Position numbers and translations under genes: made by a program. The notes under the pieces were generated by a model. That model was not told the DNA's origin, searched no databases, and worked only from the letters and a program-made list of their open reading frames with translations. Shown here piece after piece: positions 1,492 through 35,249 of a stretch of DNA of 35,249 nucleotides. Source of the DNA: Pirellula staleyi DSM 6068. Lineage in GTDB: Bacteria > Planctomycetota > Planctomycetia > Pirellulales > Pirellulaceae. Every line of letters begins with the position of its first letter. The stretch's first letter is position 1. The stretch is taken from assembly GCA_945875845.1 (NCBI GenBank), contig CAMCMB010000078.1:1-35249 (forward strand), given 5' to 3'.

Positions 1492-1575
1492 ATGAACAGC
1501 TCGGGCGCTCTGTGTGGCTTGCTTTGGCTCTTCTCTTTCCTCGTTGTCCCTGTTGGGACTTGGCAGACTTTGTGA
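1492..1575 (+). CDS. Possible 27-residue leader peptide overlapping the first giant gene
   Basis: ATG at 1492 has a good Shine-Dalgarno candidate, GAGGA at 1478-1482, nine bases upstream. The predicted product is hydrophobic in its middle (CGLLWLFSFLVVPVG) and resembles a signal or membrane peptide. Its TGA at 1573-1575 overlaps an in-frame GTG (1572-1574) of the giant gene as GTGA. That arrangement would allow translational coupling, like the ATGA overlap between the next two genes. It could also be a chance ORF, or the vestige of an older N-terminus displaced by a frameshift. No family is recognised. Confidence 0.3.
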   Translation: MNSSGALCGLLWLFSFLVVPVGTWQTL

Positions 1576-4500
1576 ACCTTTCCTCTAGATCACATTTGCA
1601 TCGAGCCACAGGTTGTTTCCTGCGGGGCGGGCATGCAATCGCTGAGAAGGTTTGCACGATCGCACTGTGTTTCGGCCTATGGTCCTCTTTGGCGTTTGCT
1701 CAGGAAATTGTCGGCACACCGCAAATGCCCGTACAGGGCAAGACTCCCGATGTGCTGACACCTGGGGTTCTCCCGGACGCCATCCTCATGCGGAACGAAA
1801 TGGGTGATGGCATTTTCGTGCCTAAATCCCGTTATGAGGAATTCGAACAATTCTTGCGAGATGAAGTCGATGCCTCACCGACTGCCTTGCCCATCGAGAC
1901 GCTCGAGCAGATCGACATTTCTGTCTTGATCGATAAGAGTGTGGCACGTTTGAAAGTGGGCGTTCAAGCTAGGCTTTCTGAGCCGAACAAGCGTTGGTTA
2001 AGCGTCCCGTTGGGATTGGGATTGGTACAAGCAATACCTTCGACGCTACCGGGTGAGAGCCTATCGGTCTTTCCACCCATTCGCATTTCAAGTGAGTCGA
2101 CAGGGTACCTATGGAAGATCGAACCAGGCCTGGAGCGTTCGAGGCGACTTGCATTTGAAGCGCTTTGCAATGTAACGACCACGAGCCAGGGGCAATCGAT
2201 TCGGTTGGATTTGCCAAATGTTCCGACGGTGCTTCGATTGAAATTGCCCCTTGGACAATGGGAACTCAATCTGACGGGAACGGGTTCCGAAGTGGTGGAA
2301 CCCTTTCTAGAAGTGGATTCGATGTCCGTCGCGATCGCGAGAACATCTGGAGGCCCAGTAACCTTGAATTGGTCGAGAAAAATTGCTGCGGAACAGATTC
2401 AGTCGATCGAAGTGGAAAGCAAAACGACTTACTCGCCAATCCCGGATTCGGGACTCTTTCGCGCTGTTGCGAAACTTGCAATTCGCGGTCCTAAGTCGCT
2501 GGGTGGTCGTCGATTTTTGATCACGCTTCCCAAGGGTAGTCTTTGGAGAGAGCCGTTTTCATCGTCCATTCCCTTCAAAGGGTATCGATTGAGCAAATCG
2601 GAGTCGTCTCAAGATGGGCCAGATACGACACTTAAGTTGGAGTTTGAAGAGGCCGTATCTCAGACGAACATCGAGGTTTCTGTCGAATGGCAAACGACGG
2701 TCGCCTCGGATTCCAATTCCCTGGAATTTGCAATTCCGAATGTAGAAGGTGTGCAGCGTCATGTTGGCGAAATGGATTTGATTGTCCCTCGCAACGTAAA
2801 ATTTCAATGGGAGCCACAGCCGGGCATTCAGTTTACAAAGCAGTTGAGTGATGGCGGCGATCCGCTTACGTACAACTTTCGTTTCAACCAACAAACCACA
2901 CCATTGCAATGTCAGTGGAGCACGGGAGATAAAATCTCCAAGTTGAAGGCTACCTACAACATCGTATACGATCAGCCCAATTTGCAACTTTCGGGCATTA
3001 TTGAATTCGTGGACGACATACGCCAATTGCCGTTTTTGCAATTGGATGTTCAGGGATGGTCCGTGGATCGAGTTCAAATACAACCTTCTGGGCGGTATCT
3101 TGATCTCGTCGCCAATCGAAGCACCACGACGATCGTCACCGAAGGGAACCCTCAAAATTTTTCTTCGATTGCGCTGAGTCTTGGCGAATTGCTGGAAGCA
3201 TTGCCGAACCAGTCAAGTGGTTCCAGCGTTAATTCGGCGTCCACAGAGATACCAGCTCAAGTGAACGACTCGACCGCAGTCAATCCAACTGTATCGCGAG
3301 AGGAAAGCCGAATGTTGGCACCGCGAGGTGTTACCTTCGTGCTTTCGCAATCCGCAAGTTCAACGGTCGAGAATCAGGAGTTGATTCAGGTGGCCTTGCC
3401 GATGCTTTCATGGATTGATCCGGAATCCCAAAAGCGATCCTCGGTTTGCGTGGGCGGCGAGCTTACCATCCAATCCTCCACATCGATATTAAGTCAATCG
3501 GAGAGTAATACGTCTTCGATTCTTCCCTGGAGTGGGGACCTGCCGAACCCGAACCCGAGCCCGAGCAATGGCGTTTTGTCCGGACGGACACCGGCAACCA
3601 ATTGGCGATCGGTTTTGAAATACAGAGTCGACAGCTCGGATGCATGGGCATATTGGAATGGGATAGCGTCGCTAAGTCATATGGTGATCCAAGCGAGGGC
3701 GGAATCCATGATCGCCATAGGCGAAGAATGGGTTGATGTCACACAGACATGGAAATTAAATTCGCAGGGCCGAATCCCTAGGACACTGCGATTAGCGATT
3801 CCAAAGGAATGGAGGTTGGATTCGAAGGAAAGCTTGGAAACGCTTCGAGTCAATATCGACAATGTACCCGTCAATATTCAATCCATGGAGGACGCTTCCT
3901 TCAACGACGATAATCTCTTCTCACCCGAGATTCAGACGCGATATTATTGGAAACGCTTGATTTTGCCGGCGGGTGCATTGGATAATGCAAACCCATCGCA
4001 GGAAAAAAAACTTACGGTTCGCATGCGCTCGCCCAATGGACGAAAAGATAAGGCTGCCAAGCTTCCTTTCGATTGGGCACTGCCAATACTCTCTGCGGAT
4101 AAAGCCGAGGACTCGTTGATCGTCGAGCAATTCTCGGGTGAACTGCGTACCGAGTCCAATGTGCGATGTTTGCTGAAATCGCCGAACGCAGACCGGTCCG
4201 AGAGAGAGGATAAGCCCAAGGAGGACCCATCCCATCTGCAGTTCGATTGCACTCAGCAAGACCCAAGACTCGTGGGGGAGTTGCTGTTCGTAACCCAAGA
4301 GGACGAAACAAAGATTCACATCGAGTCGGTTTGGTTGCAATCGATTTTGAACGCGGTGGAGCACCGCGAACGATTCGTGGTTCGATTCCATACCAATGCA
4401 AATTCGATTTCCTTGGACTTACCCGTTGATCGGTTTGCAGACACAAAAGTTCTTTTGAACGGACGCAGGGCCGTTTCGGTATCCAATGCGGGCCAAATGA

Positions 4501-5336
4501 ATCGGCTGGACATCGCGTTGGATGGAGTCGCGCGGCAATCGTCCGATTCCGATCAGAGCAGTTATGTACTTGAAGTTTTCATGTGGCCCTCCACAAAATC
4601 GCAATGGATCACATCGCTCCGCGCTCAGCCGCCAAAGATCTGGAATTGCAATAACCAAGCGTACTTAATCTGGCAGGTTGTCGTCCCGGCGACAGCTCAT
4701 TTGGTGGGTAGTTCTGCGAGCCTCTCACCTGGCTATCGCTGGGAGTGGAAGGATCTTTGGTTCAGTCGAAAAAACAACTGGACGCAAGCAGAAATCGAAA
4801 GGCAAATGGGCGCGACTTTTCAGCCGAATATCAGTCCGCAATCGAATCAATACATCTTTCTTTCCCTGAACCAGAACGCCTCGATGGAGGCTTGGTTAGC
4901 CCCTCGCTATTTGCTCTGGATTCCTGTTGCAATTTTTCTGTTGATCGGATCGATTCTTGTGATGGAGTTTCGGTGGATTCGCAAGCCTTGGTTGGGTATT
5001 GGATTGCTGCTAGTAAGTTTGGCGTTTTCTCAGTGGGCGTGGGATCTTTCGGTTGCATTGGTTCAGAGCCTTGTCGCCGCGATTGGAATTTCCTTTCTCT
5101 ACTTGATGATGAAATGGGTCGTGGATAGACGAACGCGCCGTCGCAGTGTTTTCGCTTCTCGCATTCGACCCTCACTCGTTCTGCCAGCTCCTCGACCGAC
5201 GCCCCCCGCTTCTCCATCCGATTCGTTGCGATTATTACCCAACGCGGTCCCATCCACCCTCTCACCGGTTCGAGAAGTCAACGCTTTGGAACCGTCATCG
5301 ACTGCCATTGCCAGCAATATGGGTGAGGTCCCATGA
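1572..5336 (+). CDS. Giant secreted/membrane-anchored planctomycete protein, unit 1
   Basis: Function unknown. The frame is open from 1512. GTG 1572 is chosen because it overlaps the leader stop as GTGA and gives a 1254-residue protein with a plausible signal peptide (hydrophobic TIALCFGLWSSLAFA, cleavage near AFA-QE at about residue 43). TTG 1596 is an alternative. A motif DGIFVPKSRYEEFEQFL lies near residues 80-96. Parallel VP/IP-plus-charged motifs occur in the next gene. A long ectodomain of about 1000 residues follows, rich in beta-type alternating sequence. Three membrane segments lie near residues 1112-1132, 1139-1158 and 1162-1182. An RKPWLG loop separates the first two, and a basic, proline-rich cytoplasmic tail of about 70 residues ends the protein. 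The stop overlaps the next gene by ATGA, so the two are co-translated. Most likely a surface or periplasm-facing scaffold or adhesin-like protein, which is inference from topology only. Confidence 0.85.
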   Translation: MNLSSRSHLHRATGCFLRGGHAIAEKVCTIALCFGLWSSLAFAQEIVGTPQMPVQGKTPDVLTPGVLPDAILMRNEMGDGIFVPKSRYEEFEQFLRDEVDASPTALPIETLEQIDISVLIDKSVARLKVGVQARLSEPNKRWLSVPLGLGLVQAIPSTLPGESLSVFPPIRISSESTGYLWKIEPGLERSRRLAFEALCNVTTTSQGQSIRLDLPNVPTVLRLKLPLGQWELNLTGTGSEVVEPFLEVDSMSVAIARTSGGPVTLNWSRKIAAEQIQSIEVESKTTYSPIPDSGLFRAVAKLAIRGPKSLGGRRFLITLPKGSLWREPFSSSIPFKGYRLSKSESSQDGPDTTLKLEFEEAVSQTNIEVSVEWQTTVASDSNSLEFAIPNVEGVQRHVGEMDLIVPRNVKFQWEPQPGIQFTKQLSDGGDPLTYNFRFNQQTTPLQCQWSTGDKISKLKATYNIVYDQPNLQLSGIIEFVDDIRQLPFLQLDVQGWSVDRVQIQPSGRYLDLVANRSTTTIVTEGNPQNFSSIALSLGELLEALPNQSSGSSVNSASTEIPAQVNDSTAVNPTVSREESRMLAPRGVTFVLSQSASSTVENQELIQVALPMLSWIDPESQKRSSVCVGGELTIQSSTSILSQSESNTSSILPWSGDLPNPNPSPSNGVLSGRTPATNWRSVLKYRVDSSDAWAYWNGIASLSHMVIQARAESMIAIGEEWVDVTQTWKLNSQGRIPRTLRLAIPKEWRLDSKESLETLRVNIDNVPVNIQSMEDASFNDDNLFSPEIQTRYYWKRLILPAGALDNANPSQEKKLTVRMRSPNGRKDKAAKLPFDWALPILSADKAEDSLIVEQFSGELRTESNVRCLLKSPNADRSEREDKPKEDPSHLQFDCTQQDPRLVGELLFVTQEDETKIHIESVWLQSILNAVEHRERFVVRFHTNANSISLDLPVDRFADTKVLLNGRRAVSVSNAGQMNRLDIALDGVARQSSDSDQSSYVLEVFMWPSTKSQWITSLRAQPPKIWNCNNQAYLIWQVVVPATAHLVGSSASLSPGYRWEWKDLWFSRKNNWTQAEIERQMGATFQPNISPQSNQYIFLSLNQNASMEAWLAPRYLLWIPVAIFLLIGSILVMEFRWIRKPWLGIGLLLVSLAFSQWAWDLSVALVQSLVAAIGISFLYLMMKWVVDRRTRRRSVFASRIRPSLVLPAPRPTPPASPSDSLRLLPNAVPSTLSPVREVNALEPSSTAIASNMGEVP

Positions 5337-8300
5337 TAGTACGGCGAGTGTTGCATTTCGCGGTCTTGAGTATCTGTTGCTGGGTTCGGGTTCTTTCATT
5401 GTCCGACGCGATAACGACTGCCTATGGTCAAACGTTGGAAACGACCAACTCTGCGAGCGAAGCGAACTCGACCAACGCTGCGATTCCCTATCGACGCATA
5501 TTTGTTCCGCAGGGTGATCTGCCATCGATTGGCCTGGAAAGCTACACGGCGATCGATCCCATAGAGCTGAGTCGTTGGATGGAACAGTATGCGAACGCCA
5601 GCCAAAACGCCGCTGCGACAGGGTTTCCGGTCGATGGATCAAGTAGCCCTGTTTTGGCCTCTCATTACCTCGCTAGACTCGTCGGTGGCGATTTAGTCTC
5701 GAAACGTTCTCGCCTAGTGCTACCGCGCTCGCTTCGGGCAGGCGATCGAGTGACTCTGCAACCTTGGTCGCTCGCCCTTGGTTCGAAAGTGTTTCCGAGC
5801 GAAGCGGTGTCTCGGCAACCGGAACAAACGACGGATTGGACATTTGACGAGCAGGGATTTCCCCGAGTGCCCACCTCCTATCCAGAGTACGACAACTCCT
5901 TAACGAGCGAAGCGCAACGGGATGGAGAGATCGTTCAGTGGTTTGGATGGACGGTCCAATCGAGCGCAACCAGCTTGCCTAATAAGCTTCAATTTGCATT
6001 CGATATCCCCAAAAGCGCAAACAGTTGTATGGTGCTTGCTCTCCCGCCACGCGCTGCGGTACTCGATTCCGCAACCGTTGCCCGGCGCATTGAGGATTGG
6101 TCCGAAATGAACGTTCGCTTGGGACCCTGGGCGGAGGCGGCCAAGGACTCTTTGACCAATCAAAATGCGGCGGGGCTATCCGACTCGTTTTGGCTCATTG
6201 AGCTTGGTGGCAGTCGGCGGGCTTCTTTTTCGGTGTCGCTTGGTGTCGGGGAACGCGGACTAGATTTCGTGAACGACAACGAGGCCTTTCGCTATTCTCA
6301 ACTCATTAAGACGCAGAGACTCGAACACTTCATCGACGGGCAAGAGATTCGAACAACCTGCGATGCCGAGTTGCTTGTCGGTTGGGATGCCTTATCTCCA
6401 ATGCGATTGAGCATCGCGCCAGGTGCAAGGCTGCGACGATTGACCGTGAATCAACAGGATGTGGATTGGCAAGTATTGAATGATTGGATCCAGTGGACTC
6501 CCAGGTCGAATTTAGACAAAGCTCCGCTCATCAACGCGTCTGCTGCCGCCACAGAACAGGTAGGGCAAATCAGCACAAGCCACTCCCAATCCATGCGAGT
6601 CTTCGCGGAGTTTGTTACGCCGCTTCGACCGAATTCGCAAAACGAAATTGAGACTCCGCGAATCGCGTTCGATCGTGGGTATGTGATGTCCGGTAGCACG
6701 GTCGTACATGGGATTGCACCCTGGCGGCTGACAGCGGTTGACTGCGAATCTTGCCGATTTGTCGAGTCGGCTACAAGTCCAAAGGGTGGCAATGGTAATC
6801 CGCTTGAGTATTCATGGCATGACACGCCCCCAGTCTTTTCCGTTGGTTTGGAACGCGAACGAGAAACGCGACAATGCGAGGTGTTGACTCGTCTCACGAA
6901 CAACGAACGGAGCATACTGGCAGTTGTGAGAGCAAAGCTATTGTTTCTAGAACAAGACTCGAATCACACCGCTTTGTCGATCGCACCAGGCTGGCGCGTT
7001 CGTTCCATCACGTCGATTGACCGCAATGATCCAGCGACTTTTTCACCAATACCGAACGAGTACGATTCGCCTATCAATATTCGCTTGACCTGGGACAGAA
7101 TACAGAGGAGTCGAGTGGCTGAGGTTGAGCTTCAGCTCTACCGCGAAGCGGACCTTTCGACTTCGAAGGAACCCATTAGACGGCTGACCTCCAAGCCCAT
7201 ACTGCAGATGCAAGACTGGGATGTAAGCCAAACTCTGGCGATTGAGGACTCCAGCAAGTTTCGGCTGAGTCTTCGCGAAAATTTAATTGACGTCATGGTC
7301 AATGAAGACTCGATTCCTGAGTGGCAGCGAGCCTTGCTGCCTCGACTGGGCACATCGTTTCTATTTCGCACGGAGTCGCCACACTCTGTCCGACCGAATA
7401 CCGTTAACCCGAACCGTAGTTCTCATCCTGAATTGCTATGGATTGGTAAGCCAAATCAACACGTTGCCAAGATTGAAACAACGGTCAGCCGAAGTTCCCG
7501 TCAAACACTTTTTATCCAGCACGAGATTCAGATCGATTTTGGTTCGAATCGAAACGATGCAATCGAAATCGTATTGCCCATAGAGCGTGTTGTTTGGACC
7601 CTGTTCAAGGATGGTGCCTGGGTTTCCCTCGAGCCAAAGAGTGAGACTACCGATCCTACTACGCCCGAGAAACGTGTTTGGAGATTCGATTTATCGGGTG
7701 CGGAAATGCGATGTAAGTTTCGAGGATCGTTTCTCGCCGAATTGAGCAAGGAAGAAGAGATCGCAATTCCATTCCCCGAGGTCGTTGATGCAGATATTCA
7801 ATCGGAAATAGCAAAATGTGCGGATAAAAGTATTTTGATGCGATGCAAGGAAGAGCATGGCAATTGGGCCTTCGACGAGAGGGGTACCAAGGTTCTTAAA
7901 GTAGACACGAATTCGACTGCACCCATTTTGATCCTCAAATCGTTGAAGCCGCTGGGCATACGGCCATGGATAGGCTGGGAATGCGAGCTCGACCTATTGG
8001 TAGATACGCTTGGCGCACAGAAAGCATCGCTCTTTTTGCGTTCTCGCAACGCGATACCCAAGGTTCCTATTGTCATCGAACTTGCGGACAACTGGCATCC
8101 TATCGATGTGCGTGTTCGCAAAGGAAAGGAATACCAAACGCTCCCGTTTCAACTAGATGGTCGCAGACTCATCGTGGGCGATATGCCCTCGGAAGGAAAT
8201 GCCGAAATGCGTTTGGATTTGGCTGGTCCAACCCTTTCTCGAAGTTGGAGTCGACGTTTTCTTGAGTCCAGTGCGGCGTTTCACTGGCCAATCTTTTCCT

Positions 8301-11300
8301 CGGACGATTCCTTTCTAAGTGTTCGGCGGAGGCTTTGGCTACCCAAGGAATTATCTCTTTCCAACGAGCGCGATCGGCCAGGTGGCAATAAGCCTTCGTC
8401 GCGGTGGCCCCTCTGGCAACAGTGCCAATCCCTTTTCCATGCGGCCTTCGCCACCGATTCAAGTGCCCGAGACTCGATAGCACATAAGGAAGTAGACCAT
8501 GCGATCGATGCTCTCATACCGACTTGGTCGGAGGGAAATTGGCGAGTCGAGCTGGACCAATTCGACGAGACTTCTTTGGAACTAGCCAGCCCCAAGGGAT
8601 CGAACCAACGAGACACGATTAGGATCCATGACGTCGTTTCCGGACAACTCGTGTCCGTTATTTGTTTCGCACTCTTGGCTGTCGTTACACCTCGACTGAT
8701 TTTGACGCAACGCGCTTTCGCAACGGTACTGTGCGCAGTCTTCGTTTTTGCTGCTCATACGGATCTGTTCCATTCGGCACGTTTTGCCTTTCCTGGTTTA
8801 ATTGGCATGTGCGTTGGGTATTGTGTTGTTGTGATCCATCGCCTCACAAGCAAACGAGTCGAAAACGATTCGAGTCTTTCGCACCGGAACTCGACGCGAT
8901 GGGCTCCGTGGAATGATCGAGAGGAACATAGCGATTCGATTTCCGCTCAATCCAAAATTCCGAGAAATGGCAAAAAATGGATCGGTTCGATCAAGACCAC
9001 TGCACTCAGTCTTGCAGGTTTTTTTTTCGCCTTGGTCTCGGGTTGGTTGTTTTGCGACGCAATACAGCCTGCACAACGCATTCAAGGTCAGGAACCGATC
9101 GGGAGCGATAACAAGAGCATCTTTCCGATAGTTATTCCCATTGACGAGTCGGGCGAGTTGGCTGGACCAAACGTCTATATACCCGACGAGTTACGAAACA
9201 TCTTGTCGGGAAAACCGACTCGCATCGCCGAACCGGAACTTGGAACGCGACCCGTTTCCGCAAAACACATTCTGAAAATTGGATCGCGCGGGCGCGCGGA
9301 TCAAATCATTATGTCGTATACCTTTTTGGTCGGTGAGGATTTAAGTCCTGTGCGGTTCCCATTCAATCCGGACCAACTTCAAGCATTGCGATTTAGCATC
9401 GACAACAGTGAAATCAGTCCCGGCAGCAAACTTCGCCGGACAGGTACGCAATGGGAGTGGATTCCCGAAAAGCAGGGCAAACGCACGGTTCAAGTATTCG
9501 CGCAACCTGTTTTTCGAACCGGGACGTCCGAAATCTCTAAAGATCCATCGAGTTCTCCATCGCAACAACTGGAAATTGGATTGATTCCGGTTGGCAATGC
9601 TTCGCTCGAGATAGAGATAGACTCGCAACTTTCCATCGATGTTCTCTCGCGGGGTCAAGTCATCAATCCGGAAGCCGGCCGCTTTATCGCTATGCTCGGT
9701 GCGGTCGATCGTCTGCAATGCAAAGTCTCGCCATTGAATCCGACGGGTGGGAATTTCGCAGGAGAAAGCGATGAAACGCCAGTGATGAACACGGAGTTGT
9801 TTCTTCAGAACGATATTTTGCAAGCGAAAACCATCATTGATTTCCCCAAGGGTGTGTCTGTTACTAGGGAAGTGGAGATCGAAGCAGATGGTCAGTGGTT
9901 GCCTATCGGGACTCACTGGGGCGACGCGCATTGGGTAGATGTTCGACCTGGAAGCACCTTGTCACGCAAACGGTATGTTTTGGAATGGTCCAAGGGAGCG
10001 AGCTACGCCACTCCCGCGAGCCAGCTCCAGCGGGATCGGCAGATTGCAGTCGTGTGGGTTCCACAATCAACCAACCAGAGCCTCAATGTTTTGTTTGCAG
10101 AGTGTCGCGATCGCCGTACGCGTCTTGGCACTTTTCGGTATTCGCGAGCCGCAGGATCCAACTGGAGCATCGAAGGGATCAATACATGGACCCCTGCTAT
10201 CGGTTCGAAGGAGCAACTGGACTGGCCGGAGCTAAAGTCCAACCCACTCGCATTACCACTTCGGATCCCACTCAATGGCGGCTTCGGAATACTCAAACCC
10301 AAACCGGTTGCGGAGCGACAGCAAGCAAGGGTCCAATCGAAATGGAACATCGATCGATTCGGAGAAAGCCTTACCACGCGAATTGAGTTATTCGGGAGCG
10401 GTTCTAACGCCGAAACGTTGCACTTGGACTTGCCGTCGAACTTTGTCGTGACCGATGTTTACAATCGAAGTGGGCCATTTCGGTTCTTGCAGCGCACACT
10501 CAATGGCAAACTCCGACTTCAGATTCTGACGGATCGAAAGTCGTTGGAGATCAGCGATATTTTGATTAAAGCCAAGCGACTCGACCTGGCAACTTCCAAT
10601 GGAGTCTATTCGCGAAGCGGACGGTCCGAGGTCTCGAACGATTGGCAGGAAGTGCCATGGTTAATTCTCCCGGCGAGCATCAACTACGATCAATCTCTAG
10701 ATGTTTTTGCCTCCGAGTCTGTTGGTTTGCGTCTTGATCCAACCGGTTCGGAAATTCTGTTGGGAAAAGGCGCCAACCAATCGATCAAGTTCATGACCAT
10801 CAACGCAAACGAACTGCGTTCCAACATAACGTCTACTTCTCGTTGCCAGTTGGTACGACGTTCCAAGCCATTAAAAGGCAACTTCGTTCTGATTGCCCAC
10901 AGGGAGAACGGATTGAAGGCAGCGGAAGTCGAACTGACGGGGAGCTTATCATACTCCATTGAATCGAAGCCGTCCTTCGTCTTGGAAGTCCCTTCCTCCT
11001 TCAAAGACCGATGGGTCAGCGAGCTTCGCCTTGTTTCGATGCCTTGTCCAGTTGCCAATCGAGCATGGCTCCAAGTCTTTCTTCCGGAGACTATTTCCGA
11101 AGTTGAATCAGGGGCGCCACTTTCCATTCGGTTCGTCCCCGCGGACGGTGATTCCGCGAACGCTTTCGAGCTCATGTCGCAAGTGCGTGCCGTGGACGAC
11201 GACATGATTGCAACTTACTTTGCGGCGAAGCGAACGGACAATGTGCCGCTCGAATGGAGGCCTGTGACTTCAACCACCCCCGAGCTGTTACGTCAACAAA

Positions 11301-12421
11301 TTGCCATCGATTCCGAGTTTGAAGTCTTCGAAAAGGATGGCTTTGGAACGAAAACAAATCGGAGTATGACCGAGCGGACCATGTCACCCGAGCATCCCGC
11401 AGCGGATGCAACAATCGCTCAGTCTGTTTATCAAGTCATTGCACCGACTCAGCACCCGAACATCGAAACATCGAAGATACTACTTGAATCCCGATATTGG
11501 ATCGACAGAGGGGCAAACACCCATTCTTCGTTCGCAGAATGGGAGTGGCAGCTCGACGAAACCGTCGATGTTTTATCGATTCGAGTCGACGGGCGCGAGG
11601 TGGGCTATTCCCTATCTGATTCGCGGGTGAAATGCTCGATTGTGGATATGGGGCTTTGCTCTGAGATCGCGATCACGACGGTGCATCAAGCTGCAGATGG
11701 TTTGCTTGGCGACAAAAATTTGCACGCCCCGCACTTAGTGAGCCACCCAATCGAGTCGGAGATTTTCGTTTGCGACGAATCGAATATTGGACTGCGTGTG
11801 GGTGGTATCGCTCTCACCGCAGTGGATTGGAGTATTGCAATAGAAACTCTTTCGGAAGCGTGGTTGACAATGTTCAATCGGTCGCTGGTATCCAACGTCG
11901 GAGTGAAAGTTGCCGCGCCCGATTCCGATTGGGATCGTTGGCAAAAGCATTGGAACCAGCGTGCTTTGGAATACCTGCGGCAGTGGGCAGATACGCCTGG
12001 CGCTCAAAATCCAATTTCCTATGGCAAGGCGGTTGAGCAGTGGCATCAACTTCGAGCGATTGCCGAGCCTAAGTTGGCCTCTTGGGAATCCAGTCATTTG
12101 GACTTCACCGATAAAAGTCATGCGGTACCGACCGTGAAATCGTCACAGAAAAATGGATTCGTCGATCCCTTGGTATCGATGATCGGATGTTGGCTTGTGC
12201 TCGGAGTTTTGGTGCTGATTCCAAGTTGGTTCGGAGCGATTCTTTTCGAACGTCCGTGGTGGTGCCTGTTGGCGTTAGGCCTTTTTATTTGGCTGTTTAG
12301 CGGAAGCGTCCTACCAGCCCTGATTTTAGGAACCATTGGGCTGGTAGTCTCGGCAGACAGCTATCGAATCTTTAGCGAGCGACTTCGACGAAACGGGCTT
12401 CGCGGACAACGGTCACCTTGA
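5333..12421 (+). CDS. Giant 2362-residue membrane protein, two fused units
   Basis: Function unknown. ATG 5333 overlaps the previous stop as ATGA. The N-terminus is a signal peptide ([18 protein letters not shown], cleavage near AYG-Q). Unit A is an ectodomain to about residue 1100, with the motif [13 protein letters not shown] near residue 45. It ends in hydrophobic segments at about 1105-1170 and a short charged linker. Unit B begins with a signal-like segment, basic residues then [19 protein letters not shown], at about 1222-1245. The motif [13 protein letters not shown] follows near 1280, then a second ectodomain of about 1000 residues. It closes with membrane segments at about 2280-2345 containing [17 protein letters not shown], reminiscent of the RKPWLGIGLLL segment of unit 1. 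The upstream protein and units A and B therefore share one plan: signal, VP motif, ectodomain, membrane bundle. The gene overlaps the convergent RNase Y gene by 50 bp. Confidence 0.87.
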
Positions 12422-27878: not shown

Positions 27879-30800
27879 TCAAGCTTCGTCCGACTCATAT
27901 CCTAGCACGAGGAATATGTCGTTGATCTCTGCCGGATCACTTACCAAAACTCCGTTCGGATTTGCCGGATTTGCCAGTTTCAAGTGCCACGTTTCGGTCG
28001 GAGCGGAAAGGTCAATCGCAATGCTGGCCGCTGAAAGATCCTTCCGGGCAAAATGAAGACGACCGAATTGATTCACTTGAGCTAGCTGGAACGTGTCCGA
28101 ACCGGGTGACGGCGATGGCAGCGGCGGATTCAATGTCGCCGTGTAATTTTCGCCGTCTCGACCGCGAACGAAAAGCCAGATGGAATTGACGCTGAGTGTT
28201 TTCCGGTCGTCCCTGAACGGGAACAATCCGGGAGACATTTCCAGTTCAAGAATGTTCCCACTCGCCGGATTCGAAGGATGCAGAAAACGATGCCACTGGG
28301 ATGGGAATTCCTGTCGCAGGTTCAGCATGCGAAGAGAAGGTGTGGTCCCATCCTGACTGTAGTATTCACGAAGGTTGCTGATCGCGCCGTTTTTAAATGG
28401 CCCGGCATCTTCTTTGGCGGTGTACTTGATGTGCAGGATGGCATCGGCAATCGACGCATAATCGAACTGTCGCAGAGGCTTGCCAAAGTCAGGACTTGCG
28501 GGGTCCGGATTGTTTGTCGGAAGATCGCTGAACAATTCCAGCGACCAGTCGCTGATCGCTCCCGCTCCTTCGAACGGCAAGTACCGCTCATCCCGAAAGT
28601 TCAATTCGAACACTCCGCTGTCGTTCTGTCCACTGCTGGCGGCAATGGCTTTGACAGAAATGTTGTTCTCCACAAAGCGAGCGTCATCTGCCGGCAGACC
28701 ATCGTCATCGGTGTTGTGCGGGTAACCATTGTCGCCACTGGCGGTGTTGATCCGAATGCTATTTTTCAGCAGTCGCACAGTACAGGAAACAGTCGTGTAT
28801 GGGCCCGCCACGCAGGGCAGTGTGATGCTCACCGACTTGATCCGGCGGAAATAATGACCGGGGTAGTCGAGGTCGAAGATTTCTTCCGGTAGACTGACAA
28901 AACAACGGCCTGTTTCGCGCAGCGTCACGAGGGCGAGCGGGTTCAGCATCGCGAGAGAGACGTGCTTTGAGAGTTCAAACTCTCGGCGATTCTGATCCAG
29001 ATACGCCGTCTCCAGACGCCGCAGGTCGTACTGCAGTTTTTCGCCCGAGAGCAGTCCCTTCTTCAGGCTGTCCCAGTAGCCGAAATGGATGTAACTGCTG
29101 TCCTGCAGACCCAGTTCAAAACGGAAGCATCGCTCTGCTCGTTTTGCCAGGTCGTATGCCAGTCGATAGCTTTGAAAGTACACGCCCGAAATCTGTCCCA
29201 TCTGCCACTGGTACAGATCCTTGTTCGTGTACTTCGAATGCATGAATTCGTCGGTCGCTTTGGCGTTCTCGATCTGCAGACTGTGGTTTGCCAGCTCCTT
29301 TTCTGCGATGGCGATACGGAGTTCGGCAGCCGCAATCGACTCATCAAGCTGCTCCAGTTCTTTGTCGGCGAGTTTTTCCTGAAGCTTCCAGTCGTCCCAC
29401 CGGCGACCATGACCAGCGTTGATGGACGCCTTGTTGGCGTTGTGATTTTCGACGTTCGCCCAAACCGTAAATCCTCCGGCGGCTGCCTGCAACCCGGCAC
29501 CAACGTTGGGTCCACCGAACATCACTGAGGCCTTTGGTGTACCGCCGAATCCGGCACCCCCCAGGTCGAATGACGGAACAATATGCGCAACCGAGGCGGC
29601 AATATTGATGCCCTGAGCAGTCTGCTGAGCAATCAATGCCTGTTCCAGCTTATCCTGGTGCAGCTTTTCACTGGCGTTGATCTTCTCGACGTTGCGGTAA
29701 AAGTCGCGGCGCATTGTCACGAGCTCCTTATTCTTCCTGATACCTTCGAGGTTCCATTTCGACTCCTCGATTTGCTTCTCACGCACAATGGTAACAGCTT
29801 CCAGCAGCCTGATTTCCTGACTCTGACGCAGCAGGCTCAGTGCCTCTGCGTCTTTCTTTTCCAGCGCTGCCAGCAGGGCGGCACCGAGAGATTTGACGTC
29901 GTTGCAAACCTCATTTGCTTTTTGCAGCAGGATGTTGAAGCGATACAACGGCAATGGCGCGCTCATGTCCGCGAGCGCACTGCTGATATCGACGCCGCCT
30001 GCTACGGCTTTCACCAAGGCCGCCGGGTCGATCGGCGGTTCAAACAGCGCCAGCTGACGGACCACACCCTCAATGTTCATGCAGTGCCGGATCTTGTAGA
30101 GCCGGTCGGCAACGGTGTCCCAATAGCCCAACATCTTGTCATTTTGCGGAATGCAGAAATAGAGCATCGGCAGCGGAGCGGGGTCAGCGCCGCCGACACC
30201 ACCACCGGCTTGCTGCGGAATAAGATTTTCCACTTGCACAAGCGCATTGGAGAACTTGTCGAACTCAATCTCAAGTTCATTGAAACTTTCCAGTGATGGT
30301 TTTGCCTGAGGTGGAACTTTCTTTGGACGAGGGCCGAGGATCTCCGCCGCCATGATATACAGCTGAGTCGCTTCGTTGATGCTCTCCATGCTGTCCTGTC
30401 GAAAGAGATTGTCTCCCCAGGCGACCAGATTATCGAGGTACTTCATCACCACGGTTTTCTGGTACGCCACGGTGCGATAATTAGCGAGACGATGTGGTTC
30501 GAAGGGGTTCGTGCGCCAGTCGTACACCTGGTCTTCGAGATCCTCCAATGCCTGTGCCGAGTAGCCGGGCACGCTGGTATCACCCGCCAGCATTCGCAGA
30601 ATGTTGTCGATCCGCTGCTGGACGTATTGTGAATCGGTCGTCTGAAAGAACGGCTTGGTGATCCAGAACTTGCTCATCGCCGAACCGCCGGGTGTGGAGC
30701 TTTCCACACCGATCGGATTGAAAATAAAGTGATACCATTCACGAGCTTCTTCGAATCGCTGATTTCTGCTCAGCGAGTTGGCGATCAACAACGGCGCGTG

Positions 30801-33800
30801 GAAAAACAATTCCCAGTTGTAGGGCGAGTAAGCACCGTTCGGGGTGAAATCGACGACCTCGCGCGGGTAACAATCTGGTAGTAGTGGGTATTCCGGAGGC
30901 AGCTTTGCCACGACGCCCGTCGGCTGATAGCTCAGTCTGAAATCGAACCCTGAGTCCTTCAGCTGAGTCTCACGGCTCATCAAGGCCGGGATTCCTTTGA
31001 GCGGGTTGTGGACCAGTTTGGAGAAATCGCAAACAAACGGGTGGTAGTGGTTTTTGAAATGAAACCGTCGAAACTGATAGAGGGCGGTGAACCAGATGCT
31101 CAGGAAATAATGAAAGAATCGCATGATCCAGCGCTTCAGCAGATTCCTGGCGAGTTCATCGGAATACGGCGGTGCCGCTTCTTCTGGAAACTGCATGCGC
31201 AGTGCCCGCTCCACCTGCACACGCCGCTTAGGCGGCAGACTGGAAAGCGCAAACCCAGCCAACCAAGTATCAACCAGCCCAGCGAAATACTGATCCAGCG
31301 CCCGCACACCCTTTCGGATGTCCGGGTAATACAGTCTCACGCCACCAGTGCCGCCCGCGACATGCGTCACGTCCTGGCCTCGCGGTTCCTTCCCTAGGAA
31401 GGGGAGTACAAAGAACGTACGTTTCCGGTCGTGAAAGAAGTACGGCAGCCAGGTCCCGACAAGAGCGTAATCTCTGTCATTGTTGTCGCCGCCGATTCCG
31501 ATCAGGCCATCCATGAACATTCTGTCCAGGTATGACGGGTGCCAGGGCGGCGTCATCCTGAAAATTCCAGGTGTCTCGATCAGGACCTGCGTCAGTTGAG
31601 GAGCAACCGGCATCAGTACAGGAGATCGGTCCAGACCAAATCGGTTCTCGAGTGTAAAGTCGTTTTCCGGAGCGTCCGTACGCTGCGGGGACCCCTGCCT
31701 GCCAAGTTCGACCCACTTCAGGAACTCCGTGTTATAACCGACGGATGCTCGTTCCGGTCGAATCGCGTGCTCGAAATAGCCACGGAGTTCGGTCCGCTCC
31801 GGCACACCCTTGCAACCAGCGATCTCAAATGCACCATCGAGCCTCGCTACATAATTCGGTTTTGACTCCGTTCCCGCCAGGCTGTACCCCTCGTACTTGA
31901 CAGCAAACCGGCCATCCATTTCGCTTCGGTCAATCGGAAAGAACCGGTAGTGCTTTCGGACGATGTCTTCTTCGTACGGATAGCTCTCGTCAAAGTCCGT
32001 CGATACTCGCTTGGTTGTCCACTTGCCTTGGCGGTAGTCGCTGACTGCCATCTGCATCCGAAGACGTTTCGAAGTCCTGTCGGGCGTAAACGAACTCTCG
32101 GTATTGCCGGGTAACTTGGGCATCTTGACTGTACGATTCTCTTCCTCATCCGGTACTTCCGTAAAGATTGGCCAGAACAGAAACAACCGCTGATTCACGA
32201 CTGCGGGAATCAGATAATCGCCCTGAATGTCGAGTTCGACTTTTTCCCATGGCGTCCATTGCCGGTAGTCATAACGACGATAAAAGTACAAATGCGGCTC
32301 CGCCCCAGGCGTGCGCCCAAAGACATGCACAATCGCATTGTCGCCGTCATCCTCCTGATAAAATCCGGCGATTTCAAGTTGTGCCACACCGTCCAGTTTT
32401 TCTAGATAGTTCGCGAACGCTGTTTCGACGGTGTATTGATTGATCTCGTTCTGCAGCAGTTCGTTTTCGAGGTCTTTGAAGAACGGCGACCGGTCCTTTT
32501 TTAGCTCGGGCTCGATCCAGTTCTCGGGCCACAAATACACCTTTCGATTTGCTTCCCAGACGCGATATTTTCGCATCCACTTCCACCATCGCCAGGCGCT
32601 GTCGCCACTGTCTCCGCTGTCGTTGACCACCACCTCGGGCTCCAACCCCATGAAGCTTCGTTGCACAAACAACTGGACCGACCCAGATCCTTGCACAAGA
32701 CGACTGGTGAGCTGGCACGAGCACATCTCAACGTCGAGCAGGAAATAGGCGTACAAGTCGTTCGTGTTTTCCCATTTTCCGCTTGGCGTATCGGCCGGTT
32801 GAGGCTGGATGAGAAGCCAGGCGGCAAGTGCATCCCGCTTGCGTTCTCGAAGCACATCCTGAATTTCGGCGCTCAGCGTCAGCCAGGTTTCTGTGCCGAA
32901 TTTCGAGCGGAGCAATTGCCTCACAGTCGCGGTTTGCGAAATCGTCATCGCTGCGGCGGCAAACGATGTCGCCGTTGCGGCTCGAGCATTAAGACTTTCG
33001 AGGAAGTAGAATGCCCGCCGGAGTCGCTCCCATGTTTCGGCCAGCAAATAATGGGCAGGATACGTCACGTCCAGCGAACCAATCAGCCATTCCACATCGG
33101 CGGCGGGCCACGCATCGTTCAGTTTTACGACATCGGCTGCAAAATCCGCCGCGGCAGCGTACTCTCCGGCCTGTGATTTCACGAGGACTTCGAGCAGTGT
33201 GATGTTCGTCTCCGGAAGACTGTCTCGCAATTTCAACAGGCGACTTGTTCGCAGGAATCGCTCAATGGAAGCCACCGGGGCAGTGTCATCCAAGGGGAGC
33301 GTCGCAATATCGAGCAACTGCGCTCCGGCGGTCAGGGCGATGATTCTCTCAAACTCCCCAAACACGATTTTCCATTTTCGTAGCATGGCGGAGACTCGGT
33401 TCGCCCAGAACCAGCCGTCGAAAGTGCTCTTGTGGTTCGTGTAGTCGACCGGGCTGGACGTAAAAGCAAACACGCGAGTCAGGTGAGCCGAAGGCGTCGT
33501 GTTCGCTGGATTTGGCGAGATGGGCGGCAGGATGGCGAAGTCACCAAGCAGGCGGCGAGTCAGTGCTTCGGTCAGTCCTAATTGAGCGCTGCTTTGCTGC
33601 ACGACCGCATTCGCCGCGAGAGACTTCGACTGATAGTCCAGACCTTTCCTGGCAGCATTGGCCAGCCGTTTTGCTAGGGTATCGCTGGCGGGCAGGCTCG
33701 GTTCAAGGTCAATCTCCGTCAGCCAGATTCGTTCGTCAGGCGGAGCGACCGCAGCCGGCAAGTCGGCAAGACTGTTGAGCGCAGTGTGGTATGCGGCTTC

Positions 33801-35249
33801 CACCGGAAGTACGTTAGGAACCAGCGCATGCAGAGCTGTCCGTTCGGAATTGCTCATGATTCCTGCAAAGCGCAGCAGGCTCTGTTCCGCGTCGAACGAG
33901 ATTTTGGCTGCGAGTTCAGGCGGCAACTGCGTTTTGAAATCAATCGCAGGAGGAAGTGTCGCGAGCGGCGCTGTAAACGTTGGGTCAAAGAATTTGACCG
34001 CCAGTCGGGGCAGCCTGAAGAGTTCATCGATTGCGCTGGCTGGATTCCCCGCCGCACTGAGTGCAAGGCGTTCGGCATCTGTCATCACGCCAGCGAAGCT
34101 CAGCCTTTGGGTCGTCGCATTATACCGCACGGGAAGCGAAGGAAGACTGGCTGGCAACGTGACACCACCCGGCAATGCGACCTGCGTTTCAGTCGATACA
34201 AAATTGTCGCCAGCGACTGCGGACTGCTGGTAGAGACTCTCGATCGCGTTTGCGTAAGATGCGTTGGCGGTCACCTGCGCTGACATCGTGTTTCCCAGAA
34301 GGACGTCTCGCTGTGATGCCGTCATCTGACCGACGAACCGAAGCATTCCGATCGGCTCGTCAAATTCAATTGGAATGTGATTCGGTCCGCCAGTGATCGA
34401 GGCGGGAAACGCAAACCCCGCAGGCAAGCCTTCCACGGTCGTTTCCAGAATCACACGTCCCCGCAGCGTTTTCAGAAAAGTACGGACTGCCGCCTCATCC
34501 CGGTTCAGCGACTGCAGCAGCGACGTCACCAGCGCAGTGAGACCATCGACATCCGAGGGCGGCGTGGCGGCAAGGAAGGCGTATTGCTCCGGATCGTACT
34601 CAGCGTGGATCGCCTGCAATTCCTTTCGCAGAGTCGTCAAAAAGCGGGCGGCGTCCGTTTCCTTTGTCGCAGCCTTCGCCGAACGATCCGCCGCCAGCAG
34701 CCAGTTGAGTTCGTCCACACTCAACCCTGCCGCCCTGACTTGGTCGATGCGCTCCACGAAGTCCCAGGCTGCCTCCGGAGTCGCGAATTGTAGGACATCC
34801 TGGTGAAAAATCTTAAGAACGGTCTTCCACTCTTCTGCCTTGCACTTGAGTTGTTTGCACAACCAGGAATGCCGCCAGAGAAACGAGAGGTTTCCGAGGG
34901 TCAGATCATCGGTGATGTAGCTCGTGCCATCCGACGCTTTGGTCAGACCCTTGAACAGATTCAAATCCGCTTCCCGAATCCCCAGGACCGCCAGCAACAC
35001 GGGATGATGCAACGCAATTGTCTCACCGGGCGGCAGGTCACCGGTTGCGGAGTCGAGCTGAAAAGCGGGATCGGGAGGATTGATGAGCCTCCGGTTCAGA
35101 AACAGGTTCTGATATAGGGCATCTTCCCGTTTCTCGTGCAGTTTCGTGAATCGGGTCAACGTATTCAGGTTGCTGAAAAGAGCGCAGACCTGCTCGACCG
35201 TGACTTTTGTCCCAAGCCGTTTTCGCAACCGGCTGAAGTAATACAGATT
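27879..35249 (-). CDS. Tc toxin complex TcA subunit, N-terminus beyond the window
   Basis: 2456 codons are visible and the frame is still open at the right edge. TcA forms the pentameric, receptor-binding and pore-forming body of insecticidal Tc toxins. Numbering is from the window edge. An alpha-helical front part carries three ~75-residue repeats at about 260-510. The neuraminidase-like region contains RKYRVWEANRKVYLWPENW near 892. A segment with PYNWELFFHAPLLIANSLS and FEEAREWYHFIFNPIG lies near 1470-1515. Two long coiled coils, about 1804-1880 and 1950-2050, flank a glycine-rich tip (GGAGFGGTPKASVMFGGPN), which is the translocation pore hairpin. The C-terminal TcB-binding domain begins near 2090 (FELSKHVSLAMLNPLAL, then DYPGHYFRRIKSVSITLP). 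TcdA of Photorhabdus is 2516 residues, so this is near full length. No TcB or TcC gene follows. One spot-counted line here is 57% GC versus 50% in the giant operon. Confidence 0.93.
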   Translation of the reverse strand, partial: NLYYFSRLRKRLGTKVTVEQVCALFSNLNTLTRFTKLHEKREDALYQNLFLNRRLINPPDPAFQLDSATGDLPPGETIALHHPVLLAVLGIREADLNLFKGLTKASDGTSYITDDLTLGNLSFLWRHSWLCKQLKCKAEEWKTVLKIFHQDVLQFATPEAAWDFVERIDQVRAAGLSVDELNWLLAADRSAKAATKETDAARFLTTLRKELQAIHAEYDPEQYAFLAATPPSDVDGLTALVTSLLQSLNRDEAAVRTFLKTLRGRVILETTVEGLPAGFAFPASITGGPNHIPIEFDEPIGMLRFVGQMTASQRDVLLGNTMSAQVTANASYANAIESLYQQSAVAGDNFVSTETQVALPGGVTLPASLPSLPVRYNATTQRLSFAGVMTDAERLALSAAGNPASAIDELFRLPRLAVKFFDPTFTAPLATLPPAIDFKTQLPPELAAKISFDAEQSLLRFAGIMSNSERTALHALVPNVLPVEAAYHTALNSLADLPAAVAPPDERIWLTEIDLEPSLPASDTLAKRLANAARKGLDYQSKSLAANAVVQQSSAQLGLTEALTRRLLGDFAILPPISPNPANTTPSAHLTRVFAFTSSPVDYTNHKSTFDGWFWANRVSAMLRKWKIVFGEFERIIALTAGAQLLDIATLPLDDTAPVASIERFLRTSRLLKLRDSLPETNITLLEVLVKSQAGEYAAAADFAADVVKLNDAWPAADVEWLIGSLDVTYPAHYLLAETWERLRRAFYFLESLNARAATATSFAAAAMTISQTATVRQLLRSKFGTETWLTLSAEIQDVLRERKRDALAAWLLIQPQPADTPSGKWENTNDLYAYFLLDVEMCSCQLTSRLVQGSGSVQLFVQRSFMGLEPEVVVNDSGDSGDSAWRWWKWMRKYRVWEANRKVYLWPENWIEPELKKDRSPFFKDLENELLQNEINQYTVETAFANYLEKLDGVAQLEIAGFYQEDDGDNAIVHVFGRTPGAEPHLYFYRRYDYRQWTPWEKVELDIQGDYLIPAVVNQRLFLFWPIFTEVPDEEENRTVKMPKLPGNTESSFTPDRTSKRLRMQMAVSDYRQGKWTTKRVSTDFDESYPYEEDIVRKHYRFFPIDRSEMDGRFAVKYEGYSLAGTESKPNYVARLDGAFEIAGCKGVPERTELRGYFEHAIRPERASVGYNTEFLKWVELGRQGSPQRTDAPENDFTLENRFGLDRSPVLMPVAPQLTQVLIETPGIFRMTPPWHPSYLDRMFMDGLIGIGGDNNDRDYALVGTWLPYFFHDRKRTFFVLPFLGKEPRGQDVTHVAGGTGGVRLYYPDIRKGVRALDQYFAGLVDTWLAGFALSSLPPKRRVQVERALRMQFPEEAAPPYSDELARNLLKRWIMRFFHYFLSIWFTALYQFRRFHFKNHYHPFVCDFSKLVHNPLKGIPALMSRETQLKDSGFDFRLSYQPTGVVAKLPPEYPLLPDCYPREVVDFTPNGAYSPYNWELFFHAPLLIANSLSRNQRFEEAREWYHFIFNPIGVESSTPGGSAMSKFWITKPFFQTTDSQYVQQRIDNILRMLAGDTSVPGYSAQALEDLEDQVYDWRTNPFEPHRLANYRTVAYQKTVVMKYLDNLVAWGDNLFRQDSMESINEATQLYIMAAEILGPRPKKVPPQAKPSLESFNELEIEFDKFSNALVQVENLIPQQAGGGVGGADPAPLPMLYFCIPQNDKMLGYWDTVADRLYKIRHCMNIEGVVRQLALFEPPIDPAALVKAVAGGVDISSALADMSAPLPLYRFNILLQKANEVCNDVKSLGAALLAALEKKDAEALSLLRQSQEIRLLEAVTIVREKQIEESKWNLEGIRKNKELVTMRRDFYRNVEKINASEKLHQDKLEQALIAQQTAQGINIAASVAHIVPSFDLGGAGFGGTPKASVMFGGPNVGAGLQAAAGGFTVWANVENHNANKASINAGHGRRWDDWKLQEKLADKELEQLDESIAAAELRIAIAEKELANHSLQIENAKATDEFMHSKYTNKDLYQWQMGQISGVYFQSYRLAYDLAKRAERCFRFELGLQDSSYIHFGYWDSLKKGLLSGEKLQYDLRRLETAYLDQNRREFELSKHVSLAMLNPLALVTLRETGRCFVSLPEEIFDLDYPGHYFRRIKSVSITLPCVAGPYTTVSCTVRLLKNSIRINTASGDNGYPHNTDDDGLPADDARFVENNISVKAIAASSGQNDSGVFELNFRDERYLPFEGAGAISDWSLELFSDLPTNNPDPASPDFGKPLRQFDYASIADAILHIKYTAKEDAGPFKNGAISNLREYYSQDGTTPSLRMLNLRQEFPSQWHRFLHPSNPASGNILELEMSPGLFPFRDDRKTLSVNSIWLFVRGRDGENYTATLNPPLPSPSPGSDTFQLAQVNQFGRLHFARKDLSAASIAIDLSAPTETWHLKLANPANPNGVLVSDPAEINDIFLVLGYESDEA

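Follow-up and report, generated by a model that had tools for sequence, protein, structure and literature searches.

Outside peptidases, domains of the type of the M1 aminopeptidase N-terminal saddle domain (PF17900; M1_N) are non-catalytic building and binding blocks, as in Ost1 and TAF2, and to our knowledge these two are the only proteins known to use M1_N/Ost1-like domains non-catalytically. TAF2, a component of TFIID, uses its M1-like domains as a scaffold and is a nuclear protein without membrane anchor. Ost1 (ribophorin I) is described in excerpts of PMC7226087 as membrane anchored, with two mainly beta domains, similar to each other, arranged one after the other on the luminal side, and an excerpt of PMC11417166 indicates that an Asgard archaeon possesses it too. 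Here, we report on two overlapping genes in a window of 35,249 bases, one whole contig (CAMCMB010000078.1) of the 7.0-Mb genome of Pirellula staleyi DSM 6068 (Planctomycetota, class Planctomycetia). The pair encodes three homologous units, is widespread among planctomycete bacteria, and apparently carries in each unit a row of five domains, predicted from sequence and models to be M1_N-like in shape and without enzyme core.

The units are predicted to share with Ost1 a membrane anchor and mainly beta domains in tandem, but Ost1 has two domains and one transmembrane (TM) helix and belongs to the eukaryotic oligosaccharyltransferase, whereas the bacterial pair has about five domains and three TM helices in each of its three units. 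Unlike TAF2, the units are membrane anchored, and the M1 saddle domain occurs here as a tandem array fixed by a TM bundle, with no catalytic domain seen. The comparison suggests a bacterial non-catalytic array of M1_N/Ost1-like domains. The repeat fold is known; what appears to be new is its use in such an array, together with the family and its three-unit plan. Literature searches on planctomycete giant or envelope proteins and on tandem M1_N domains showed us no description of the gene pair, an absence that is not proof, nor in the excerpts of PMC8567305, and no described function.

Three homologous units and their internal repeats

Gene 1 encodes unit 1 and gene 2 encodes units 2 and 3 fused, for a combined length of 3636 amino acids (aa) (coordinates are given in Table 1). 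Gene 1 was read from a GTG codon, its exact start being uncertain because about 45 first residues are not conserved in the gene 1 profile A1; a signal-like hydrophobic stretch lies at about residues 46-68. Neither protein has a match above cut-off in Pfam or NCBIfam. A general hmmscan against Pfam with E up to 1 returned no family for gene 1, no Ost1/ribophorin I family for either protein and, for gene 2, DUF6594 and TB2_DP1_HVA22, both weak, below cut-off, located in the last hydrophobic stretch and judged to be noise. Searches of PDB sequences gave nothing for P0002 or for the unit 1 profile A3, and four rows at chance level for the unit 3 profile A4.

A first-pass annotation, made from the sequence alone, had proposed that the two genes, with more than 3600 residues, hold three copies of one plan, and had named mutual similarity of the units as the check. 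That the units are instead unrelated and share merely a common membrane-protein layout might be argued from the window itself, where BLASTP of the first open reading frame (ORF1) against the second (ORF2) finds nothing (E 0.091), and from family-only profiles (51 close relatives of gene 1 and 33 of gene 2, giving 22 and 17 rows), in which the units match each other weakly, though collinearly in the best cases; these profiles were set aside as too shallow. Class-wide relatives were then collected with A1, which found gene 1 in 51/198 genomes, and A2, which found gene 2 in 13/198, and a first batch of 40 regions, none longer than 20 kb, was taken. The units were cut ahead of alignment so that units 2 and 3 were not mixed, which gave profiles of 60, 51 and 51 rows for units 1, 2 and 3 (without L073, L087, L066 and L069; L062 and L079, at contig ends, were left out of gene 2). 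With these profiles, hhalign joins unit 1 to unit 2 with a score of 293 (E 4.5e-30, 870 columns), unit 1 to unit 3 with 247 (E 3.5e-25, 896 columns) and unit 2 to unit 3 with 206 (E 6.3e-21, 777 columns), against a top score of 36 in six reversed-profile comparisons. Both alignments of unit 1 extend into the TM bundles, while that of units 2 and 3 ends short of them. Plain BLASTP also joins gene 1 and gene 2 of one locus in 11 of 61 regions (E <=1e-6), all from the second batch, the best at E 9.9e-22 over 858 residues.

Outside the class the units can even be separate genes. In L197, three genes of 1128, 1237 and 1138 aa follow one another and match best, in this order, the unit profiles W1 (239 bits), W2 (171) and W3 (184); L192 also has three in a row, of 1202, 1419 and 1470 aa, matching best W1, W2 (narrowly, 166 versus 161) and W1. 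The long profile matches and this three-gene version, together with the second-batch BLASTP links and the repeat comparisons given below, refute unrelated units, a view to which we leave practically no weight. The predicted three-copy plan thus holds, with a similarity that is significant between class-wide profiles and invisible to BLASTP of the window pair.

Hydropathy analysis finds three segments closing unit 1, three closing unit 2, and a single extra segment between residues 1217 and 1241 of ORF2 that separates units 2 and 3; at the end of unit 3, one hydropathy analysis gives three segments and another two. A hydrophobic bundle therefore closes each unit after an ectodomain of about 1000 residues, as first proposed, and relatives share similar layouts, with L073 as the clear exception. 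The models of units 1 and 3 each close with three helices, preceded in unit 3 by additional helices after the last repeat. If the domain ahead of them is exported, three helices would leave the C-terminal tail inside, and the lone segment before unit 3 would carry that unit out again; the loop joining TM1 and TM2 and the unit 1 tail (DRRTRRRSVF) are basic, as expected of an inside location. That loop holds RKPWLG (residues 1157-1162) in unit 1 and ERPWWC (residues 2306-2311) in unit 3, and their equivalent place, noticed from the sequence, is borne out by the aligned pairs K1158-R2307, P1159-P2308 and W1160-W2310. The VP/IP motif suggested near the mature start needs correction: it is not one motif across the three units. 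FVP of unit 2 (57-59) aligns with IVIP of unit 3 (1266-1269), not with VYIP (1281). The unit 1 helix past VP, YEEFEQFL, aligns with DELRNIL of unit 3.

Two points absent from the first-pass annotation are an internal fivefold repeat and a fold like the M1 aminopeptidase N-domain. AlphaFold2 models were made of unit 1 (window 1695-5186, 56 rows) and unit 3 (9038-12418, 32 rows), with mean predicted local distance difference test (pLDDT) values of 80.4 and 74.7 and predicted template modeling (pTM) scores of 0.43 and 0.40, the latter meaning that the domain arrangement in the models is not to be trusted. The modeled ectodomains are almost entirely beta, and long-strand pairs open domains at about positions 69, 239, 417, 664 and 874 in unit 1 and 70, 249, 428, 613 and 792 in unit 3. 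Repeat bounds (D1 to D5) were placed by eye from strand lists, D3 and D4 being the least sure. When the ten repeats were compared all against all, 34 of 90 off-diagonal comparisons exceeded the top of 100 reversed ones (26.9). Same-position scores were 76-80 for D1, 35-36 for D2, 44-46 for D3, 26-28 for D4 and 43-44 for D5. The idea that same-position repeats are always best partners is true for D1 and D3 and fails for D2, D4 and D5, which are equaled or beaten by another repeat (for example, U1D5-U3D1 scores 45 and U1D4-U1D5 42).

By structure and profile comparison, some repeats resemble M1_N/Ost1 domains, so that the N-terminal saddle fold of the M1 aminopeptidase family is recognizable here. 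Against an M1_N profile built from 28 of 30 loci (L127 and L140 omitted) and Escherichia coli PepN, hhalign gave 13 in-register matches, and the best M1_N profile match lies in unit 2 repeat D5 (E 6.9e-5); the link is weak. Five neighbor-family profiles, not picked for beta structure, served as unrelated controls, and the reversed profile is the sole control with a like beta make-up. In Foldseek searches, the first match of unit 3, and the best multi-domain structure match, was 6c26_1 (E 1.1e-8), which we take to be an oligosaccharyltransferase chain, and such chains are also among the best matches of unit 1. Chain 7edx_B, presumably TAF2, is among the structure matches as well. The single TM helix of Ost1 is not reproduced, the count of terminal hydrophobic segments being three for units 1 and 2 and two to three for unit 3.

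The match to the M1 N-terminal domain could also mean that the proteins are degenerate or cryptic M1-type peptidases, which we hold to be very improbable. The matches shown are restricted to that domain, and the modeled ectodomains offer almost nothing but beta structure. HExxH is not conserved (1 of 60 gene 1 proteins and 4 of 55 gene 2 proteins) and G[AG]MEN occurs in none of the same 60 and 55, so an M1 enzyme was dropped, in line with the earlier remark that no enzyme motif is visible. Pfam PF17900 itself had no match in the genome of the window up to E 10. At E 0.001, Peptidase_M1_N had no match in 5 of 5 class genomes against 48 of 94 outside, a small sample; ordinary M1 peptidases may thus be missing from the very class that has the M1_N-like arrays.

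Distribution and variants

The deep unit 1 profile A6 (22 rows) matched 57 of 59 genomes from the class Planctomycetia. Across the phylum it matched 34 of 89 genomes, namely 5 of 5 of the class (the genome of the window included) and 29 of 84 outside, four of the latter (G004, G025, G026 and G076) being near the threshold with E 1.9e-6 to 8.4e-4. The operon had been called specific to its lineage, which this spread led us to reject. Less sensitive queries gave far lower counts (P0001 alone, 6 of 199 genomes; A1, 4 of 149), and the near-absence outside the class seen with A1 was a sensitivity limit that A6 corrected. In a scan of a contig database with A1, all 21 loci had titles of Planctomycetota, Planctomycetaceae or Pirellula.

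The gene pair was read by script in 38 of the 40 first-batch regions, which had been selected for a match to one of both genes; in the other two (L078 and L087), gene 1 was masked by the script's choice of ORF, and the matching frames there stay open for 1221 and 1141 aa. The ATGA overlap of the window, from which translational coupling had been deduced, has a possible counterpart in 29 of the 38 first-batch pairs, which supports coupling, and in 32 of 58 pairs overall with the window counted; the script takes the gene 2 start codon nearest the gene 1 stop and thus favors short overlaps. Several class genomes possess a second, longer pair (about 1200 and 2700 aa), which mostly lacks the 4-base overlap (e.g., L160:6137-17841 and L164:6627-18082). 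Gene 2 is short in L073:8745-12254 (1169 aa), L176:9529-14361 (1610 aa) and L177:1108-6003 (1631 aa), possibly with a reduced third arm. Outside the class, one region was inspected in each of 16 of the 29 genomes. Seven hold a plain two-gene pair (L187, L188, L190, L193, L196, L198 and L201), L192 and L197 have the three genes described above, and the remaining seven are not plain: ORFs overlap, the contig breaks off or, as in L200, the second gene is short.

Proposed role and rival explanations

Coupled genes, three arms, about five blocks per arm and three TM bundles are most simply read as a membrane-anchored periplasmic scaffold. We give about even odds (a probability near 0.5) to the reading that both genes make one non-catalytic complex, a three-armed periplasmic scaffold or tether anchored in the inner membrane. 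The three homologous arms would be made in equal numbers, arm 1 from gene 1 and arms 2 and 3 as one chain from gene 2. Each would be exported, line up about five M1_N-type saddle domains within the periplasm, and be fixed in the inner membrane by its three-helix bundle with the basic tail inside, and the arms would associate through these bundles. Reaching from the inner membrane into the wide periplasm of planctomycetes, they could then serve as both scaffold and binding surface, organizing or tethering other envelope components. We infer export, assembly into one complex and the scaffold role from the computed features; the "large envelope assembly" of the first-pass annotation fits the data and goes beyond what they demonstrate.

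Several results weigh against this scaffold. The 4-base overlap occurs in just 2 of 19 second-batch pairs, and the short gene 2 of L073, L176 and L177 means that a strict three-arm plan is not universal. Among the repeat comparisons, 56 of 90 lie at or below the reversed maximum; 4 of the 13 in-register M1_N matches fail to outscore the best unrelated profile (22.2), U3D2 and U3D4 of the ten slices match M1_N out of register, and slice U1D1 scores higher with the reversed control (18.4) than forward (17.3). The models cover units 1 and 3. Superposition of two domains on the oligosaccharyltransferase chains leaves a root mean square deviation (rmsd) of 15.3-16.2 over 313-331 residues which, with the pTM values above, means that the domain arrangement is not shown. 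Finally, no conserved partner gene pointing to a process was found among 41 regions.

The oligosaccharyltransferase matches of units 1 and 3 would also suit auxiliary subunits of a machinery for surface glycosylation or protein export, similar to Ost1/ribophorin I, standing beside a membrane glycosyltransferase or translocon and holding the emerging or modified polypeptide with their saddle domains. A GT87 gene adjoining gene 1 upstream in L176 and L177 agrees with this, yet that adjacency amounts to two loci of one genus and is not among the cross-family neighbor clusters, most neighbors having had no Pfam scan. As each unit has three TM helices against one in Ost1, and Pfam gives nothing for gene 1 and two weak sub-cut-off families for gene 2, we consider such a role unlikely. 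Alpha-2-macroglobulin and complement chains among the Foldseek matches, and the accumulation of dextran and green fluorescent protein in the planctomycete periplasm reported in excerpts of PMC5394234, could point to the capture of incoming macromolecules or foreign proteases in the periplasm, either by a trap comparable to membrane-bound alpha-2-macroglobulin or by a receptor for the uptake of dextran or protein. The Foldseek matches to such chains have rmsd values higher than 30 and TM-scores near 0.05-0.07, the generic sign of many beta domains, and a trap or receptor seems quite improbable.

A bolder extension of the three-armed scaffold, to which we attach only a slim chance, is that the planctomycete crateriform complexes owe their inner-membrane half to this pair, which would build three-armed columns with about 15 saddle domains as press-stud-like bridges between cytoplasmic and outer membranes; if true, such bridges would shape the invaginated cytoplasmic membrane. 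We know of no protein established as part of the crateriform structures, for which this giant inner-membrane pair, near-universal in the class, is a candidate and nothing more. For Planctopirus limnophila, PMC5394234 gives a density of 29.1 crateriform pits per square micrometer. Excerpts of PMC10632474 mention the loss of ftsZ in the class Planctomycetia and, in P. limnophila, a set of 108 phylum-specific essential proteins whose function is unknown. The pair adds a phylum-wide unannotated family, found in nearly all sampled class genomes, and is a candidate structural part of the unusual planctomycete cell envelope; so long and conserved a pair without Pfam or NCBIfam match above cut-off is an entry to what holds this envelope together.

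Feature coordinates and gene neighborhood

Table 1. Features of the gene pair in the window (all on the + strand)
Feature	Coordinates	Strand	Basis or remark
Gene 1, unit 1	1512..5336	+	ORF, 1274 aa
FVPKSRYEEF, N-terminal strand and helix of unit 1 preceding the repeats	1815..1844	+	Model and alignment
Unit 1 segment preceding repeat D2	1890..2390	+	
Unit 1 repeat D2	2400..2900	+	
Unit 1 repeat D3	2934..3530	+	Contains low-confidence insert
Unit 1 repeat D4	3675..4190	+	With D5, matches two oligosaccharyltransferase-chain domains
Unit 1 segment between repeat D4 and TM bundle	4302..4904	+	
Unit 1 three-TM bundle	4908..5108	+	Hydropathy and model
RKPWLG, unit 1 loop joining TM1 and TM2	4980..4997	+	
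Overlap of genes 1 and 2 (ATGA)	5333..5336	+	
Gene 2, units 2 and 3	5333..12421	+	ORF, 2362 aa
10-residue segment of unit 2	5498..5527	+	Alignment
Unit 2 repeat D1, approximate	5642..6211	+	Bounds mapped via profile alignment
Unit 2 repeat D2, approximate	6221..6832	+	Profile alignment
Unit 2 repeat D3, approximate	6866..7303	+	Profile alignment
Unit 2 repeat D4, approximate	7448..7825	+	Profile alignment
Unit 2 repeat D5, approximate	7955..8632	+	Profile alignment; best M1_N profile match
Unit 2 three-TM bundle	8648..8839	+	Hydropathy
Internal signal-anchor-like hydrophobic segment ahead of unit 3	8999..9055	+	
10-residue segment of unit 3	9173..9202	+	Alignment
Unit 3 segment preceding repeat D2	9236..9739	+	
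Unit 3 repeat D2	9776..10249	+	
Unit 3 repeat D3	10310..10837	+	
Unit 3 repeat D4	10868..11347	+	
Unit 3 repeat D5	11405..11827	+	
Helical stretch between D5 and bundle, absent from unit 1	11828..12064	+	Unit 3 model (helices 931-1009)
Unit 3 TM bundle, two or three segments	12170..12352	+	Two hydropathy analyses, model
ERPWWC, unit 3 counterpart of RKPWLG	12248..12265	+	

Two clusters recur most often as shared neighbors, inositol monophosphatase in 15 of 41 regions and GNAT in 10 of 41, each named via Pfam on two members; both look like gene order kept in related genomes. An account by partner genes was given up, as the neighbors, among the shared clusters and few others scanned with Pfam, are housekeeping or genus-local only. 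The GT87 membrane glycosyltransferase genes lie at L176:4009-5595 and L177:9565-11073, in one genus as far as seen. Also in one genus, a protein of 1074-1108 aa with an N-terminal CxxCH stretch is encoded just upstream of the pair (L060:1-3225 and L092:15337-18663); its sequence start and the absent terminal TM bundle speak against a fourth unit.

In the window, the pair converges on an RNase Y gene, with the 3' ends of gene 2 and this gene overlapping by 50 bases (12372-12421), and L074 has a like overlap, of 44 bases, with an ORF of 591 aa that falls in the same BLAST cluster. On the minus strand at 27879-35249, an open frame of 2456 aa, truncated where the contig ends, codes for Tc toxin TcA domains (TcB-binding, ABC_toxin_N and neuraminidase-like).

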